Position numbers and translations under genes: made by a program | Part shown: positions 52,355 to 61,192 of the stretch, piece after piece | Layout of the letters: each line of letters begins with the position of its first letter | Numbering within the stretch: position 1 is the stretch's first letter | Notes under the pieces: model-generated | Seen by the model: the letters and a program-made list of their open reading frames with translations, nothing else | Told to the model about the DNA's origin: nothing | The model's database searches: none | Source of the DNA: Rhodovarius crocodyli | GTDB lineage: Bacteria; Pseudomonadota; Alphaproteobacteria; Acetobacterales; Acetobacteraceae | Length of the DNA stretch: 64,000 nt | Direction: 5' to 3' | NCBI RefSeq assembly: GCF_004005855.1 | Contig: NZ_SACL01000001.1 | Span: 558,001-622,000, forward strand

Positions 52355-52744
52355 TCACTGACTACTCCTGTGCATCTCTGCGCGTCCAAGACGAGTAAGT
52401 GCGGCGCTACATTCGCTCGCGCGGCTTTCGGCATCGAGAAGGCGTCCCAGCGTCGCCTCAACCCGAGCAAATACATAGCCGGCGACATACGCCTGCTGGT
52501 CGCCCGCCATTGTGGTGAGGTTCGCTCGAAGCCTGCGCAGCAGGGCTTCAGCGGCGTCTCTGTCCGCCGAGACCCGGCAGAACTGCCACACCTCCGCCGC
52601 GGCCGCGTAGCTCTGGGCGAAGCGGACGGAATCCCGATTTCCAAACGAGGGGAGCAGGGGGGCCGGTTCGCTCTGTCCCTTGGCCACTCCCGCCCCCGTC
52701 AGCAGCATCCCCGCCGCCAGCACCATGAGGTGTCGTGATGTCAT
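52355..52744 (-). CDS. Exported prophage protein, copy 1
   Basis: A 129-residue protein with a signal peptide (MTSRHLMVLAAGMLLTGAGV). The mature part is helical and has spaced cysteines (VWQFCRVSADRD, SRASECSAALTRLG). It is a paralogue of the protein at 52833-53204: the first 18 codons are identical, while the mature parts share only a loose pattern (QQAYVAGY/QRGYVSGY, C.AALTRLG/CREALARLG). Probably a periplasmic lysogeny (moron) protein. Function unknown. Confidence 0.65.
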   Translation of the reverse strand: MTSRHLMVLAAGMLLTGAGVAKGQSEPAPLLPSFGNRDSVRFAQSYAAAAEVWQFCRVSADRDAAEALLRRLRANLTTMAGDQQAYVAGYVFARVEATLGRLLDAESRASECSAALTRLGRAEMHRSSQ

Positions 52745-52832: not shown

Positions 52833-53204
52833 TCATTCTCTCCGCATGCCGGATGTTTGGGCGTGTCCAAGCCGAGCCAAGGCCTCGCGGCATCCGGCGC
52901 GACGTTGCTCGCGGCTTGCTCCATTCATGAGGTCGGCAAGGAAGTTTGCCATTGTGTAGCCGGAGACGTACCCGCGTTGCTCGGGTGCCATCTCTGCCGC
53001 CCTTGCCTGCAGGGCCTCAAGCATCTGTTCGGCTCCGGCCTTCTGTTGGCCCTCGCATCTCGCTGCGACAGCGGTTGCGGCAGAGATCGTCATGGCAAGG
53101 GCGATGGTTCCCGGCGCAGGCCGCGTCGGGAAGTCGAGTTCCGCCCTTGCCGCCCCCGTCAGCAGCATCCCCGCCGCCAGCACCATGAGGTGTCGTGATG
53201 TCAT
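52833..53204 (-). CDS. Exported prophage protein, copy 2
   Basis: A 123-residue paralogue of the protein at 52355-52744. It has the same signal peptide (MTSRHLMVLAAGMLLTGAARA), then a different mature part with QRGYVSGYTMANFLADLM and RAGCREALARLG. The nearly identical signal region against diverged mature parts indicates recombination at the shared module. Function unknown. Confidence 0.65.
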   Translation of the reverse strand: MTSRHLMVLAAGMLLTGAARAELDFPTRPAPGTIALAMTISAATAVAARCEGQQKAGAEQMLEALQARAAEMAPEQRGYVSGYTMANFLADLMNGASREQRRAGCREALARLGHAQTSGMRRE

Positions 53205-54917: not shown

Positions 54918-55156
54918 AGGCCGCCCTCCGCGCCGTCGCCGCGAAGCTGCGCGATTCCATCCGCTTCCACCGCTGTGGCTGGGGCTGGGGTGTCGATCTG
55001 TGGTGGCCCAGCCTGTGCCTGGGCCGTGTCGAACTGCGCTGGTCCCGCCCCGGGGCCCGTGAGGAAATGCGCCGCCTTCGCGGCGTCGAGGACGCCCATG
55101 CGGCCCTGCGTGAGCGGGTGCAGGGCCTCTCCCGTGATGTGGAGCGGAAACAATGA
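54914..55156 (+). CDS. Prophage hypothetical protein
   Basis: An 80-residue basic protein with WGWGVDLWWPSLCLGRVELR in the middle and a helical end (MRRLRGVEDAHAALRERVQ). It overlaps both neighbours by four bases as ATGA. Not recognised. Confidence 0.55.
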   Translation: MKAALRAVAAKLRDSIRFHRCGWGWGVDLWWPSLCLGRVELRWSRPGAREEMRRLRGVEDAHAALRERVQGLSRDVERKQ

Positions 55157-56406
55157 GCAAGCTGCCCGTCGCCGTCGCCAAGGTGCTGCGCCTGGCGGCC
55201 TATCTCCAGGGCCTGGCAAGCAAGCCGGCGCCCAGCAATGTTGAGATGGCGCAGGCCACCGGCTCATCCGTGGCCAATGTCTCGCACCAGCTGCGCTCCG
55301 CCGTGGAGTATGGGCTGCTGCATGTCGCCTATCCTGCCCATGGCGTGAGGGTCATCTGCGGCGCCGATTCGGCTTGGTCCACGCTGCCCAGCGTTCCATC
55401 CGCTGGCCGGAAAGTCGCTGATCCCCTGGCCGATGGCCGGATTGTCAGCATGGCGCCGCGCCTCTGGACTGATGCCGAGACGACGCAACTGCGCGCCATG
55501 TGGCCCGACCCGCTGCTGACAATCCAGGAAATCGCCCGTTGCCTGGGCCGCAAGCGCACCGATGTGCATGGCCGCGCCCATGTGTTGCGCCTGGCACCGC
55601 GCCCGCCGGAATGGAAGCAGCGAGAGGCCCGGTTGGGCCTGCGCGGCGGGCTGTCGGCCAGGGCCCGCGCGGCGCTGGAGCTGCTGGCGCAGTACGATGG
55701 CAAGCCGGCGCCGACGAACGCCGTGATCGCGCGCGGCGTTGGCTGCAGCGCGCATGCCGTGACGGAATACCTGACCGAGGCAGCCCGCGTCGGCAAGCTG
55801 ACCGTCACCGTCATCACCAGCAATGTCCGCGTGCTGGCCTGCCCCACCGGCGCCTGGGCCACCACGCGCTCCCTGCCTTCCGGCGGTGCGGTGCCGGTCG
55901 ATGCCTGGCCGGTGGAGCGCGATGCGCAGCTGCGCCAGCTATACTGTGTCCAGGGTCTGTCGATGTCGGCGATTGCTGCTGCCCTTGGCCTGTCCAAGGG
56001 GGCCGTGTCGGGCAGGGTCACACGCTTGAGGCTGCTCAAGGCAGCGGTTGCAGCGCCGAGAGCGCCGCGTCAGCCCCGCCCCCGCCAGCCGGGTGAGGTG
56101 GTGCGGCGCGTGCGCATGCCCGGCGAAGGCGGCAAGCCGAAGCTGGCCGAAGGCACATCGGCGGAGCGCAAGGTGGCTGCCCAGGCGGCTCAGCGCGCCC
56201 CGGCGGCGCCGCTGCCCTCACTGGAACAGCTGATGCAGGATGGCTGCCGCTGGCCGCTGTGGCCCGACATGGCGCGCCCCAACCACGAATATTGCGGCAA
56301 GCCGCGCGCACGGCGCTGGTCGGGCCGCGAAATGGCGTTGGCCTCTTATTGCTCCGCCTGCCTCCAGCGTTCCGCGGCTTTCGCGGTGATCGCGGAGGCG
56401 GCGTGA
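55153..56406 (+). CDS. GcrA-like regulator with duplicated DNA-binding units
   Basis: A 417-residue protein made of two similar units. Each has a winged-helix-like part (about 8-70 and 170-230, both with KPAPxN) and a GcrA-type helix-turn-helix (WTDAETTQLRAMW...EIARCLGRKRTDVHGRAHVL at about 105-146; PVERDAQLRQLY...AIAAALGLSKGAVSGRVTRL at about 253-292). The C terminus (365-405) has CRWPLW, YCGKP and YCSACLQR, as in the sigma70-interacting tail of Caulobacter GcrA. It probably controls phage or host transcription with sigma70. Confidence 0.75.
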   Translation: MSKLPVAVAKVLRLAAYLQGLASKPAPSNVEMAQATGSSVANVSHQLRSAVEYGLLHVAYPAHGVRVICGADSAWSTLPSVPSAGRKVADPLADGRIVSMAPRLWTDAETTQLRAMWPDPLLTIQEIARCLGRKRTDVHGRAHVLRLAPRPPEWKQREARLGLRGGLSARARAALELLAQYDGKPAPTNAVIARGVGCSAHAVTEYLTEAARVGKLTVTVITSNVRVLACPTGAWATTRSLPSGGAVPVDAWPVERDAQLRQLYCVQGLSMSAIAAALGLSKGAVSGRVTRLRLLKAAVAAPRAPRQPRPRQPGEVVRRVRMPGEGGKPKLAEGTSAERKVAAQAAQRAPAAPLPSLEQLMQDGCRWPLWPDMARPNHEYCGKPRARRWSGREMALASYCSACLQRSAAFAVIAEAA

Positions 56407-57233
56407 CCGCGCCCGCCCTCCGTATCCTCTCGCTCGGCGCCGGCGTGCAATCCACCACCATGGCGCTGATGGCCGCCCACGGGCTGCTCGGCCACGTCGA
56501 TGCCGCGATCTTCGCCGATACGGGCGCGGAGCCGGCGCCGGTCTATGACCATCTGCGCTGGTTGACCTCGCCCAACGTGCTGCCCTTCCCGGTGCATGTT
56601 GTGATGCGCGGCCACCTTCGTGACGACATGCGCGCTGACCTCAACACCACGGGCGGTCGCTTTGTGAGCGTGCCATTCTTCGGCCGCACTCCCGCCGGAG
56701 CCACGATGATGGCGCGGCGCCAGTGCACCAGCGAGTACAAGCTGAAGCCCATCCGGGCCTGGGTTGTGCAGGAGTATCAGCGCCGCACCGGCCTGAGCCG
56801 CCCCACGGCTAGCTGGTGCGAAATGCTCATCGGCATCTCTGTAGATGAGGTGATCCGCGCGAAGCCCAGCCGGGTCCGATACATCGACAATGCCCATCCC
56901 CTGCTTGATGTGCGGATGCGGCGCTGGGATTGCCTGCGCTGGCTCGACCGCCACGGCTATCCGCGCCCGCCGAAATCCGCCTGCTCGGAGTGCCCGTTTC
57001 GCACCAACGCTGAATGGCGATGGCTGCGCGAGAACGACCCCGCCGGCTTCGAGCATGCATGCGTCTCTGATGAGATGCTGCGGCAGGGCATACAGGCCGG
57101 CCGCTTCCAGTCCGAGCTGTACCTGCACCGCAGCCTGGTGCCGCTGCGCGTCGCGGATCTTCGCAGCGACGAGGAGCGCGGTCAGCTGGCCATGCCCATG
57201 CTGAATGAGTGCGAAGGGATGTGTGGCGTATGA
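56403..57233 (+). CDS. Phage PAPS-reductase-like (PP-loop) protein
   Basis: A 276-residue protein with GTG start at 56403 overlapping the regulator stop as GTGA. The PP-loop ATP motif is ILSLGAGVQSTTMALM. Further family marks are FADTGAEP, RQCTSEYKLKPIRAW, CSECPFRTNAEWR and the C-terminal ECEGMCGV. Relatives lie in many phages; sulfate reduction is unlikely, and an adenylating or thiolating role on nucleic acid is possible but unproven. Confidence 0.78.
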   Translation: MTAPALRILSLGAGVQSTTMALMAAHGLLGHVDAAIFADTGAEPAPVYDHLRWLTSPNVLPFPVHVVMRGHLRDDMRADLNTTGGRFVSVPFFGRTPAGATMMARRQCTSEYKLKPIRAWVVQEYQRRTGLSRPTASWCEMLIGISVDEVIRAKPSRVRYIDNAHPLLDVRMRRWDCLRWLDRHGYPRPPKSACSECPFRTNAEWRWLRENDPAGFEHACVSDEMLRQGIQAGRFQSELYLHRSLVPLRVADLRSDEERGQLAMPMLNECEGMCGV

Positions 57234-57619
57234 CCGCCCTCCCGCTCCCCCTGTTCGATGACCCGGCCCAGCCGGCGCCATCCATCCAGCTTCCGGCACG
57301 GCTGCCGGAAGGCTCGCGGCCCCGCGCCGCGGGCGTTTCCTCCCGGATCAACTCCCCCGGGGCCCCGCGCCCCGGGGCTTTTTCCGCCGAGGATATCGCA
57401 GCCCGCCTGCGCAGCCGGACCACGCAGCTGCTGGCCTCAGCCATCGATGGTGACCGCCAGGTGGCGTCCATCCTGCTGGCCGGCGGCCAGCTGGTCATCG
57501 ATGATGTGCATGAGGTGGTAGGGCGCTGGCCCGGCATCAGCATCCTGCTGCGCCGTCAGTGCTGGGCCATGCACTGCCCGCCCCGAACCGTGGCTCGAAT
57601 GTGCGGTGAGCCACTGTGA
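57230..57619 (+). CDS. Prophage hypothetical protein
   Basis: A 129-residue protein with a Pro-rich first half and a helical second half (FSAEDIAARLRSRTTQLLAS, LVIDDVHEVVGRWPGISILL). It overlaps both neighbours by four bases. It sits just before the primase and may assist replication. Not recognised. Confidence 0.55.
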   Translation: MTALPLPLFDDPAQPAPSIQLPARLPEGSRPRAAGVSSRINSPGAPRPGAFSAEDIAARLRSRTTQLLASAIDGDRQVASILLAGGQLVIDDVHEVVGRWPGISILLRRQCWAMHCPPRTVARMCGEPL

Positions 57620-58638
57620 CCATCCCGGCCGAGCAGCTGGACGCCATCAAGCGCGCCACCCGGCTATCCAGCCTGGTGCAGGGCGAGGTGCGGTTGAAGC
57701 GCAACGGCGCCGGCCGCTGGTCGGGCTGCTGCCCGTTCCACCCGGACAAGAGCCCGTCCTTCAGCGTGGTGGACGATAAGGGGTTCTATCACTGCTTCGG
57801 GTGCGGCGCGCATGGCAGCGCGCTGGATTGGTTGATGCAGCGGCGCGGCCTCAGCTTCATGGAGGCCGTCGAAACCCTGGCGGCCGACGCCGGCATTGCC
57901 CTGCCGTCGCGCCGCGAACGCCCGGCCCCCGTGCCCCCCGCGCTCCGCCCGAAGCCTGTGGCGCCCCTGGCCGATGCCGAGCCCGATGATGGGGATCGCA
58001 TCGAGGCGGCACGCCGGATCTGGATCGGGGCCAGCGACATTGCCCTGGATGGCCCGATCGCGGCCTATCTGCGGCGCCGCCATATCTGGCCGCTGCCGCC
58101 TGCTGCGCGCCAGGTGCTGCGCCAGGCCAGGCTGGAGCATCCGCACATGCGGTCGCGCCATTGGGCCATGGTGGCCCGCGTGGATGCCCCCGATGGCACG
58201 CCCTGCGCCGTGCATCGCATCTTCTTGACCGATGACGGCCGGAAACTGCCGGTTGAGCATCCCAAGCTGGCCAAAGGTCGGCTCAAGGCCTCCACCATCC
58301 GGCTGGCGCCGGTCGGGCCGGAGATCGGCGTGGCGGAGGGCATCGAAACCGCCCTGGCCGCCGCGCAGCTCTCCGGCATCGGGGTGTGGGCCTGTATCTC
58401 CGCCACGGTGCTGGAGCAGTTCTCGCCGCCCTTCGATGTGGGCCGCGTGGTCATCTTCGCCGATCGGGACCAGCCCAAGCCGCGCTCGCCCGAGGGCCGC
58501 GGCCTCCAGGCTGCCCGCACCCTGCAGGAGCGGCTGAGGCCCCTGCATGTCGAAACCGAGATTCGGATGCCCCATGCGCCCTTCGGCGACTATGCCGATG
58601 TGCTGGCGGCCATCCGCGAACAGGAGGCAGCACGATGA
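57616..58638 (+). CDS. Phage primase (CHC2 zinc finger and TOPRIM)
   Basis: A 340-residue primase with GTG start overlapping the previous stop. The CHC2 zinc finger is CCPFHPDKSPSF...YHCFGCGAHGSALDW (residues about 38-73). After a Pro-rich linker, a TOPRIM domain shows EIGVAEGIETALAAA and VVIFADRD. It makes primers for phage replication with the ATPase encoded next. Confidence 0.9.
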   Translation: MTIPAEQLDAIKRATRLSSLVQGEVRLKRNGAGRWSGCCPFHPDKSPSFSVVDDKGFYHCFGCGAHGSALDWLMQRRGLSFMEAVETLAADAGIALPSRRERPAPVPPALRPKPVAPLADAEPDDGDRIEAARRIWIGASDIALDGPIAAYLRRRHIWPLPPAARQVLRQARLEHPHMRSRHWAMVARVDAPDGTPCAVHRIFLTDDGRKLPVEHPKLAKGRLKASTIRLAPVGPEIGVAEGIETALAAAQLSGIGVWACISATVLEQFSPPFDVGRVVIFADRDQPKPRSPEGRGLQAARTLQERLRPLHVETEIRMPHAPFGDYADVLAAIREQEAAR

Positions 58639-60368
58639 CTGTGGTTCAGCTGCGAAAGGATTTCGACGGCCCGCCGCCCCCACCCCCCGAGCCCCCCGAG
58701 CCGCCTGCGGATGAGGGGCCGGCTGGTGGCCCCATCACGGTGCTGGGGCAGCGCAACGGCACCTTCTACTTCTTCGACTATATGGGCCAGTTCCGCGAGC
58801 TGACGGCCCACCAGATCGGGATCAAGCAGCACATCAACGCCCTGTTCGGCGATCGGGGCATCCAATGGTTGGTGGACCAGTTCCCTGCCTTCGACAAGCA
58901 CGGTGACCCCACGGGCAGCTACAGCGTCGACGGCGCCAACCGCTGGATCATCCGCGAGGCTGGTTCGATGGTGTTCGATGGCTCCATGCCCAGCCGGGGC
59001 CTGGGCCTCTGGCGGGCGGGGGAAGCCGTGGTGGCCCATCTCGGCGACCGCATCTGCTGGGATGGCGAATGGCGCCACCCCGGCTTCCAAGCCGAGGGCG
59101 CGCTGTGGCCGGCCCGGCCGCCGCTGTTCGAGGTGCAGCCCCCCGCGCCCCCCGGTGACCTGGCGGAGCTGGAGGCGATGATGCGCCGATGGAACTGGGC
59201 GCATGACGGCTCGGCCGAGGTGATGTTCGGCCTCTGGTGCGCCGGCGTGCTGGGCGCGTCCATCCCCTGGCGCCCGCATGCCTTCATCGTGGGCGAGGCC
59301 TACTCCGGCAAGTCCACCCTGTTCGGGCTGCTGGCGGCGGCCAACCCCACGGCCCTGCTGGTCAACAGCTATACCGAGGCTGGCATCCGCCAATCCCTCA
59401 GCCAGCGCGCATCCGCGGCGCTGATGGATGAGGCCGATGCGGATGAACAGGCGGAGGCCGAAAAGCTGCAGCGCGTGATCGGCTTCCTGCGCCTGACATC
59501 GGGCGGCCAGGGTGCCCAGGTCCTGCGCGGCAGCCCGGACGGCTCGGCGCAGCGTTTCGACGTGGTGTGCAGCGCCATCATGGGCGGCATCCTGCCCCCG
59601 AATTTCAAGCCACAGGACGCCAGCCGCATCACGCGCCTGGACCTGCGGCGCAAGGCGGCAGACAGCAAGGGCCTGCCATCCGAGGTGCAGATCCGCGATC
59701 TGCGGTCACGGGCGCCGGCCTTCCTGTCTCGCGCGCTGCTGGTCGCGCCTCGCTTCATGGAGGTGTTCAGGGTCTATCATGCCGCGCTGATCGAGCTGGA
59801 CGGTAATGCGCCGCGAATGGCGGACCAGCTCGGCACCATCCTGGCCGCCAGGCACATCATGCTGAGCGACCGGCCGCCGGAGGCCGTGGGCGATGATCTC
59901 GATCTGGTGCGCTGGGCCATCCCGTCAGCCGAGGATCGGGAGAGCGAGGGCGGGCCAAGGCAGTGCCTGCACCACCTGCTGCATGCGCAACTCGATCAGC
60001 AGAAGGGAGGCGAGCGGCCCGTGGTCTGGCGCACAGTCCTGGACGCTATCGCGGCCGATGCGGGGATCAGGGACGAAGCGAAGCGCAGCCTGCTGAACCA
60101 TGGCATGCGCGTCGGGCCCTATCCGCTGAAGGATCAGGCTGGCGCGCCCGTGCTGTACGTCATGAACCAGCACCAGCAGCTGGCCCGCATGTTCGCAGGC
60201 ACTAGATGGGCAGGCGAGAAATGGCGCGAGGATCTGGCGCGACTTCCCGGCGCTGTCGTGCCGCCGAACCCTATAAAGCTCTCGACGGGCAACAAGATCC
60301 GTGTCGTGGTGATTCCGCGCGCCCTGCTGCCCTATCCAGGGGACGGAGGGGACGGTGACCAGGATTAG
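58635..60368 (+). CDS. Phage replication P-loop ATPase/helicase-like protein
   Basis: A 577-residue protein. A Pro-rich N terminus (PPPPPPEPPEPP) precedes a middle ATPase with Walker A FIVGEAYSGKSTLFGLL and Walker B ASAALMDEADADEQ. The C terminus is helical. It overlaps the primase gene as ATGA and is likely the replicative helicase or loader. Its last codons (PGDGGDGDQD) are written with GGGGAC repeats that begin the array downstream. Confidence 0.75.
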   Translation: MTVVQLRKDFDGPPPPPPEPPEPPADEGPAGGPITVLGQRNGTFYFFDYMGQFRELTAHQIGIKQHINALFGDRGIQWLVDQFPAFDKHGDPTGSYSVDGANRWIIREAGSMVFDGSMPSRGLGLWRAGEAVVAHLGDRICWDGEWRHPGFQAEGALWPARPPLFEVQPPAPPGDLAELEAMMRRWNWAHDGSAEVMFGLWCAGVLGASIPWRPHAFIVGEAYSGKSTLFGLLAAANPTALLVNSYTEAGIRQSLSQRASAALMDEADADEQAEAEKLQRVIGFLRLTSGGQGAQVLRGSPDGSAQRFDVVCSAIMGGILPPNFKPQDASRITRLDLRRKAADSKGLPSEVQIRDLRSRAPAFLSRALLVAPRFMEVFRVYHAALIELDGNAPRMADQLGTILAARHIMLSDRPPEAVGDDLDLVRWAIPSAEDRESEGGPRQCLHHLLHAQLDQQKGGERPVVWRTVLDAIAADAGIRDEAKRSLLNHGMRVGPYPLKDQAGAPVLYVMNQHQQLARMFAGTRWAGEKWREDLARLPGAVVPPNPIKLSTGNKIRVVVIPRALLPYPGDGGDGDQD

Positions 60369-60581
60369 GCGTCCCCTCACATATCGTTGATATTGCTCGG
60401 ATAATCGACGCCAGGGGACAAGGGGACGCAGGGGACGCAATAATAGGGATACGATATGTGCATGCAGGCGTGACCGCATGGTCACCTCATGCCCGTCCCC
60501 TGCGTCCCCTTGTCCCCTCATTAGAATTCAACAGGTTTATCAAAAGGATAGAAGGGGACATGAAGGGGACAGCGAGGGGAC
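60339..60581. repeat. GGGGAC repeat array with 25-bp inverted repeat (origin candidate)
   Basis: Twelve GGGGAC motifs lie in 243 bp: direct at 60339, 60348, 60414, 60422, 60431, 60554, 60565 and 60576; inverted at 60371, 60495, 60504 and 60512. Bases 60413-60437 and 60494-60518 are a perfect 25-bp inverted repeat. CACATATCGT (60378-60387) and ACGATATGTG (60451-60460) are another, and GTGACC-GCAT-GGTCAC forms a central hairpin. AT-rich stretches lie between. The place after primase and helicase suggests a replication origin. Confidence 0.65.
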
Positions 60582-61192
60582 AGGCTGAATTGCGCGAGAT
60601 CGTGCAGGGTCAAACCTATCACACGCCCACCTCCATGGCGGTTCAGGCCGTCGCGGAGCGGCTGGAGAAGGTCGAGGTTGCCCGCGCCATGCGTGAGCGA
60701 GCCAGCCTCGAATTCGACTCCCCACCACCTCCTCGCGCCATGCAGCGCAACGCGGCGGTGCAGCTCCACATGGCGGGCCACATCCGCACCGAGCAACTGC
60801 GCGCGGCACAGGAGGTCGAGCGGATGTTCTTCATCTCCACCTCGGGTGTCCGCGGCAGGATCGCGGCCAGCTATACCGAGCGCACCTCGGGTGGCCAGGC
60901 CGGTGATGACTGGTCGGATGCTACCCGCATTGCCTACACGGAGCGCTTCAAGCCATGGTCGGACTGGGCTGGCCGGCAGGTAGTGCGCGGCCGCACCTAT
61001 CGAGAGATCACCTTGATGCTCTGCACGGACAACCTCAGCCCGCGACAGATGAGGGCGCAGATCGGCCTGCATGAAGTGACCATCCTCCGTCACCTCCAGA
61101 TCAGCCTGCTGGAATACGCAATGATCGGGGGATGGGTGGACCCGCCGATGACCGAAATAAACCTGCTTGACCCAAGTGGCGTTTCAACCTAG
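60560..61192 (+). CDS. Putative late regulator (Q-like position), hypothetical
   Basis: A 210-residue protein. The ATG at 60560 lies between two GGGGAC copies, so AAGGGG is both repeat and Shine-Dalgarno. The end has YREITLMLCTDNLSPRQMRA and QIGLHEVTILRHLQISLLEY, an HTH-like region. Its place before HNH and terminase genes fits a late-gene activator. No family was recognised with certainty. Confidence 0.55.
   Translation: MKGTARGQAELREIVQGQTYHTPTSMAVQAVAERLEKVEVARAMRERASLEFDSPPPPRAMQRNAAVQLHMAGHIRTEQLRAAQEVERMFFISTSGVRGRIAASYTERTSGGQAGDDWSDATRIAYTERFKPWSDWAGRQVVRGRTYREITLMLCTDNLSPRQMRAQIGLHEVTILRHLQISLLEYAMIGGWVDPPMTEINLLDPSGVST

Follow-up and report, generated by a model that had tools for sequence, protein, structure and literature searches.

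A GGGGAC iteron array at the 3' end of an ATPase gene as the putative replication origin of a complete prophage of Rhodovarius crocodyli

The DNA analysed, referred to here as the window, was a stretch of 64,000 nucleotides from Rhodovarius crocodyli (NZ_SACL01000001.1, positions 558,001 to 622,000), and all coordinates are positions within it. The first gene in the replication cassette of the prophage in this region is a plus-strand gene for a DnaG-type primase (57616-58638) with a CHC2 zinc ribbon, DUF7146 and Toprim_3, as indicated by Pfam and PHROG matches. This is followed by a plus-strand gene (58635-60368) for an ATPase of 577 residues that matched phrog_21086 and phrog_35358 and, at thresholds up to E = 1, no Pfam family. 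An array of GGGGAC copies (60339-60581) begins in the end of the ATPase gene, and on its 3' side are, in order, a plus-strand ORF of 210 codons without family matches (60560-61192), an HNH gene and terminase genes, with the HNH and terminase small-subunit-like genes 0.6–1.4 kb downstream of the array. The same prophage encodes TerL, a connector or head-tail adaptor, a head closure protein and a tape measure; the terminase, connector and tape-measure genes indicate that this prophage is complete and not a satellite. Several other features were noted upstream of the cassette. The gene at 55153-56406 encodes a phage protein of 417 residues that is related to a host regulator through its C-terminal GcrA cell-cycle-regulator domain, and the PAPS-reductase-like phage gene at 56310-57233 was also matched by a profile of the phosphorothioation-defence protein SspD (E = 7e-10). 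Two adjacent small ORFs (52355-52744 and 52833-53204, minus strand), both starting with the signal-like MTSRHLMVLAAGMLLTG, are apparently a local duplication.

The window contains 24 copies of GGGGAC, counted on both strands, as opposed to 51 predicted from shuffles; the motif is therefore globally depleted, and 12 of these 24 copies lie within the 243 bp from 60339 to 60581. The Poisson expectation for a segment of this length is 0.20 copies, with a probability of 5e-18 for at least 12 copies and of approximately 3e-12 once all hexamers and positions are allowed for. Thus, both the 12 copies reported in the initial annotation and its rough estimate of fewer than one copy by chance were confirmed.

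The copies fall into four blocks. Block A (60339-60376) contains copies at 60339 and 60348 on the plus strand and at 60371 on the minus strand, block B (60413-60437, plus strand) has iterons at 60414, 60422 and 60431 (spacings of 8 and 9 bp), block C (60494-60518, minus strand) has iterons at 60495, 60504 and 60512 (spacings of 9 and 8 bp), and block D (60554-60581, plus strand) has iterons at 60554, 60565 and 60576 (both spacings 11 bp). An AT-rich element (60520-60552) in which 24 of 33 bases are A or T lies between blocks C and D and, from its composition and position, is a putative DNA unwinding element. The array had been described as situated directly after primase and helicase-like genes, and this order was correct apart from the boundaries. 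Thus, the final ATPase codons already contain the first two copies of block A, and the opening codons of the following ORF, which starts at 60560, contain the last two copies of block D, the remaining copy of which overlaps the Shine-Dalgarno sequence of that ORF. The iterons at both ends of the array therefore double as coding sequence, with 60339-60353 contributing to the last ATPase residues (PGDGGDG) and 60565-60581 to the N terminus encoded by the following ORF (MKGTARGQ). Copies homologous to those of block A were also present in loci L017 and L275.

Triplets B and C together form a perfect 25-bp inverted repeat with 56 nt between its arms, in agreement with the initial description of a triple array and its exact inverted partner. 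The nested inverted repeats that had been listed are also present, one composed of GTGACC (60470-60475) and GGTCAC (60480-60485), a palindrome at 60470-60485 inside the spacer between blocks B and C (60438-60493), the sequence of which varies among relatives, and the other composed of CACATATCGT (60378-60387) and ACGATATGTG (60451-60460). The latter pair is broken in a sister prophage and is therefore probably incidental. If transcribed, the 25-bp repeat could act as an RNA hairpin, either a terminator or a regulatory RNA, and its predicted fold is stable (-72 kcal/mol, z -7.4). This explanation of the array is nevertheless very improbable, since the stem is not followed by a U-tract, block D, with direct copies at 11–12 bp, takes no part in it, and what the relatives conserve is the 7-bp unit and its spacing rather than a continuous stem. 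A G-quadruplex function was also considered and was rejected because the iterons of most relatives are without G runs. GC skew, which had been suggested as a check, had no extremum at the array and was uninformative.

Comparison of 57223-60606 with the corresponding loci of a second prophage in the same genome (L002 and L008) indicated 97.5% identity over these 3.38 kb, which is the only stretch common to both prophages in the region compared; otherwise they are different. The sister prophage retains 11 of the 12 GGGGAC copies, and the common block stops within approximately 25–30 bp past the last copy, from which it appears that the primase gene, the ATPase gene and the array travel as one cassette. 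The array, situated at the close of this block, is part of the primase-ATPase module. The ORF after the cassette is merely 44% identical to its counterpart in the sister prophage (L014), and this value, compared with that of the cassette, suggests replication-cassette recombination.

A literal GGGGAC array was not found in any of 30 homologues of the ATPase (25–51% identical). When the search was widened to any repeated 7-mer, the most frequent 7-mer at the 3' end of the gene was present in 6–12 copies in most of these 30 homologues as opposed to 3–6 copies in shuffles. The set was then enlarged with viral contigs to 63 non-redundant relatives, with an array defined as at least 6 copies, and 45 of the 63 had a comparable array where the ATPase gene ends, with 42 of these arrays beating all 100 shuffles. 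Thus, the array that had been expected in related replication modules was absent as literal GGGGAC and present with a diverged iteron, and its recurrence in the same layout 3' of the ATPase gene lends support to the initial suggestion of a likely phage replication origin. In the same 63 relatives, control searches of the 5' end of the gene reached 6 copies once and yielded no convincing array, and arrays in mid-gene controls were confined to a handful of simple repeats or a truncated locus. The remaining 18 relatives, mostly the most diverged, had no clear array, and the pairing of ATPase and array is therefore not universal in the wider family. Outside this set, the same layout was found in Bdellovibrio phage phi1422 (11 copies of TGTTACC), a weaker case was noted in Synechococcus phage MinM1 (6 copies of GTGTGAG), and the array was absent from most other distant named phages examined. 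A scan of genome contigs with the ATPase yielded no relative, and none was found in a nucleotide search of plasmids.

The distribution of the arrays also bears on whether the array might be a packaging (pac/cos) or recombination site, as the nearby HNH and terminase small-subunit-like genes would allow. Among 65 searched loci, with limited flanks, a terS relative was present in 2 and an HNH gene in 11, whereas the arrays accompany the gene for the ATPase, the tail of which covaries with the iteron (see below). A packaging or recombination site is thus hardly credible.

The iteron varies by lineage (GGGAC, GGAACAC, TGTGACC, TGTAACC, GTAGCC, AGGGAAC, GGTAACC and others) as a unit of 7–8 bp, and most iterons, read in the orientation of block B, fit NG[T/G]NACN with the register across clades set by eye. 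The geometry of the array varies far less than these letters. Thus, the B-C-D layout was seen in 44 of the 45 array-bearing relatives, with three copies in block B, mostly 8–9 bp apart, a gap of approximately 70 bp, three inverted copies in block C, also mostly 8–9 bp apart, and three copies in block D with spacings of 11–12 and then 10–11 bp (the first spacing was 11–13 bp in 32 of 33 relatives). The gap between blocks C and D had a median length of 43 bp and a mean AT content of 73% compared with 38% for the gene body, the value for the gap being the higher one in 43 of 44 relatives.

The array might alternatively be an operator or other regulatory site through which a transcription factor or the ATPase controls the downstream genes while replication starts elsewhere. 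The ribosome-binding site and the start of the next ORF coincide in part with block D, so that binding to this block must affect expression of this ORF, and initiators often autoregulate. However, the downstream genes vary between relatives while the array stays beside the ATPase gene; counterparts of the next ORF were present in only 4 other searched loci, including the sister prophage, and this ORF is not a consistent partner of the array. In addition, an operator would not require as many as four triplets together with an AT-rich element in fixed helical phase, and the origins of PICI are a close architectural match. Regulation as the sole role of the array is therefore improbable.

The AlphaFold (AF2) model of the ATPase had a pLDDT of 87, and its top structural match was the SCCmec helicase Cch (5dgk; VIA-align Z 17.1, rmsd 6.4, 412 residues), with residues 32-563 of the model aligned to residues 39-548 of 5dgk at 8% identity in the structural alignment. 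This predicted match spans the MCM-like N-domain, the AAA+ core and the C-terminal domain, and the next matches were MCM helicases (Z 15.6 and below); the Z score of 7ola_C was 13.6. The Walker A lysine and Walker B Asp-Glu are invariant. Neither D5_N nor Primase_Cterm, the profiles of D5-type primase-helicases (SaPI5 Rep, Cch2 and the P4 alpha class), was matched by the window ATPase in Pfam, DUF927 did not appear in the list of the 25 commonest families of 29 aligned relatives, and a profile search of the PDB returned only P-loop matches of note. The C-terminal domain (residues 511-568, encoded at 60165-60338 on the plus strand, with a wing-like loop at approximately 540-548), when modelled in isolation, gave weak winged-helix matches only, the best of which was TcpK (Z 4.9, 92 residues), and a Foldseek search with this domain alone gave nothing below E 0.4. 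On the basis of the full-length model, the ATPase is a putative self-loading initiator helicase of the Cch/SaPI Rep structural type.

Shared ancestry would be expected to tie differences between iterons to differences throughout the ATPase, and every segment did show such a correlation. It was strongest for the C-terminal 67 residues (511-577), with a Mantel r of 0.308 (p 0.001), and was maintained in a partial Mantel test given the ATPase core (0.335, p 0.001; the converse was negative), which removes shared ancestry only in part. The signal of residues 511-577 also persisted after controlling for other ATPase segments whereas the converse did not. Comparisons of individual loci were in line with these results. 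Thus, the ATPases of L278 and L027 are 89% identical with tails that differ mainly in RRNAKAMRVG as opposed to RRSKTNVRIG, and between these loci nearly all iteron copies change from GTAACC to GTGACC within origin DNA that is approximately 65% identical. L032, which is 41% identical to L027, has the loop RRSKSSVRIG and the same TGTGACC iteron as L027. Similarly, L004 and L025 (72% identical) have a K/N difference at the same place in the loop and GTAGCC and GTGAAC iterons, respectively. On the AlphaFold model the covarying loop is predicted to lie in the strand region after helix 529-535. In relatives with AGGG[AC]AC iterons (L280, L288, L289, L291 and L035) the wing loop is approximately seven residues longer, and a reading of alignment column 546 in this clade was dropped for that reason. 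The correspondence between loop and iteron, as drawn from these sequences, is a correlation and would not in itself be evidence of binding. Taken with the other findings, binding of the array by the adjacent ATPase is quite likely. The broader proposal, slightly favoured here, is that these ATPases form a wide family of phage self-loading initiators in which the wing-like loop is a readable iteron code, with approximately 12 scattered copies rewritten together whenever the loop changes and their spacing fixed.

Origins of PICI lie immediately 3' of rep and have two iteron sets that flank an AT-rich region (Fillol-Salom 2018, PMC6092414), and both SaPI Rep and Cch2 bind the downstream origin through a C-terminal domain (PMC7581432). 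The window system resembles these pri-rep-ori modules in the succession of primase gene, initiator-helicase gene and candidate origin immediately 3', the array starting in the last ATPase codons, in short iteron sets around an AT-rich region, with blocks C and D flanking the 73% AT segment; it may also resemble them in C-terminal recognition. It differs in its four-block layout, in its carrier, which is a complete prophage rather than a phage-dependent satellite, and in an ATPase that matches no DUF927 or D5 Pfam profile. The predicted fold of this ATPase is shared with Cch/SaPIbov1 Rep (5dgk) and with the Cch2/SaPI5 type (7ola), although the low identity to the former and the lack of a detectable DUF927 profile match set it apart. 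TcpK of pCW3 (5vfy/5vfx) reads tandem 9-mers through a beta-wing (PMC6137059), the element that covaries with the iteron here; TcpK is, however, a conjugation protein without an ATPase, and its match to the C-terminal domain is too weak for homology. The origins of iteron plasmids and lambda-type O origins likewise combine an array of initiator sites with an adjoining AT-rich region that melts. The iterons of these systems are longer (approximately 17–22 bp) and their initiators are not ATPases, unlike the 7–8 bp units and helicase-type ATPase candidate of the window, which is thus distinct from a classical iteron plasmid with its non-ATPase Rep. By analogy, the best reading is that the window system would work like a SaPI/PICI rep-ori within a complete prophage.

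The observations made here comprise an array with a conserved position and layout, an AT-rich element, covariation of the iteron with the C-terminal domain, and a fold match. From these it is inferred that the initiator binds the array directly, that the DNA melts, that the helicase is loaded and synthesis primed, and that the site is active as an origin. Thus, 60339-60581 is very probably the replication origin of the prophage, with the adjacent self-loading initiator helicase as its likely binder. The initiator would be the ATPase encoded just upstream, acting as a self-loading hexameric helicase, the C-terminal winged-helix-like domain of which would recognise the 7–8 bp iterons. Inverted triplets B and C and phased triplet D, with copies 11–12 bp apart or approximately one helical turn, would position initiator assemblies around the AT-rich segment between C and D. 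This segment would then melt and take up the helicase on its separated strands, with synthesis primed by the neighbouring DnaG-type primase. An origin layout reported as confined to satellite islands would thereby extend to complete phages, with position, anatomy and a candidate initiator provided for many alphaproteobacterial and other prophages without annotated origins, and the dozens of initiator and iteron pairs on one scaffold constitute a natural data set for co-evolution of initiator-origin specificity.

Other viral contigs were also noted to carry GGGGAC arrays, mostly close to or at the 3' ends of unrelated replication helicase genes (AAA_25, Prim-Pol/D5_N, PriCT-2, CHC2/DUF927 and others). 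Arrays with copies in mixed orientation were located in L091 (13221-13490), L050 (803-1132), L061 (6027-6334), L242 (1399-1709), L248 (8222-8424) and L250 (4010-4248). The placement of an origin 3' of the initiator-helicase gene may thus extend to unrelated phage helicases (AAA_25, Prim-Pol and D5-like types), and the occurrence of GGGGAC itself beside such helicases may be partly convergence or chance, or may reflect a common preference for G-rich short iterons. A scan of viral contigs with AGGGGAC gave 24 matches, nearly all of them true mixed-orientation clusters, whereas the permuted motifs AGGCGGA and AGACGGG gave 15 matches with few true clusters and 1 match, respectively; the greater number of true clusters indicates that GGGGAC arrays are enriched in viral contigs. 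The control scans also met genuine-looking arrays of other iterons, with 16 copies of GGCGGA in L256 (892-1242) and 8 copies of GACGGG in L271 (1671-1795), so that a scan for clustered heptamers in mixed orientation could find phage origins generally.
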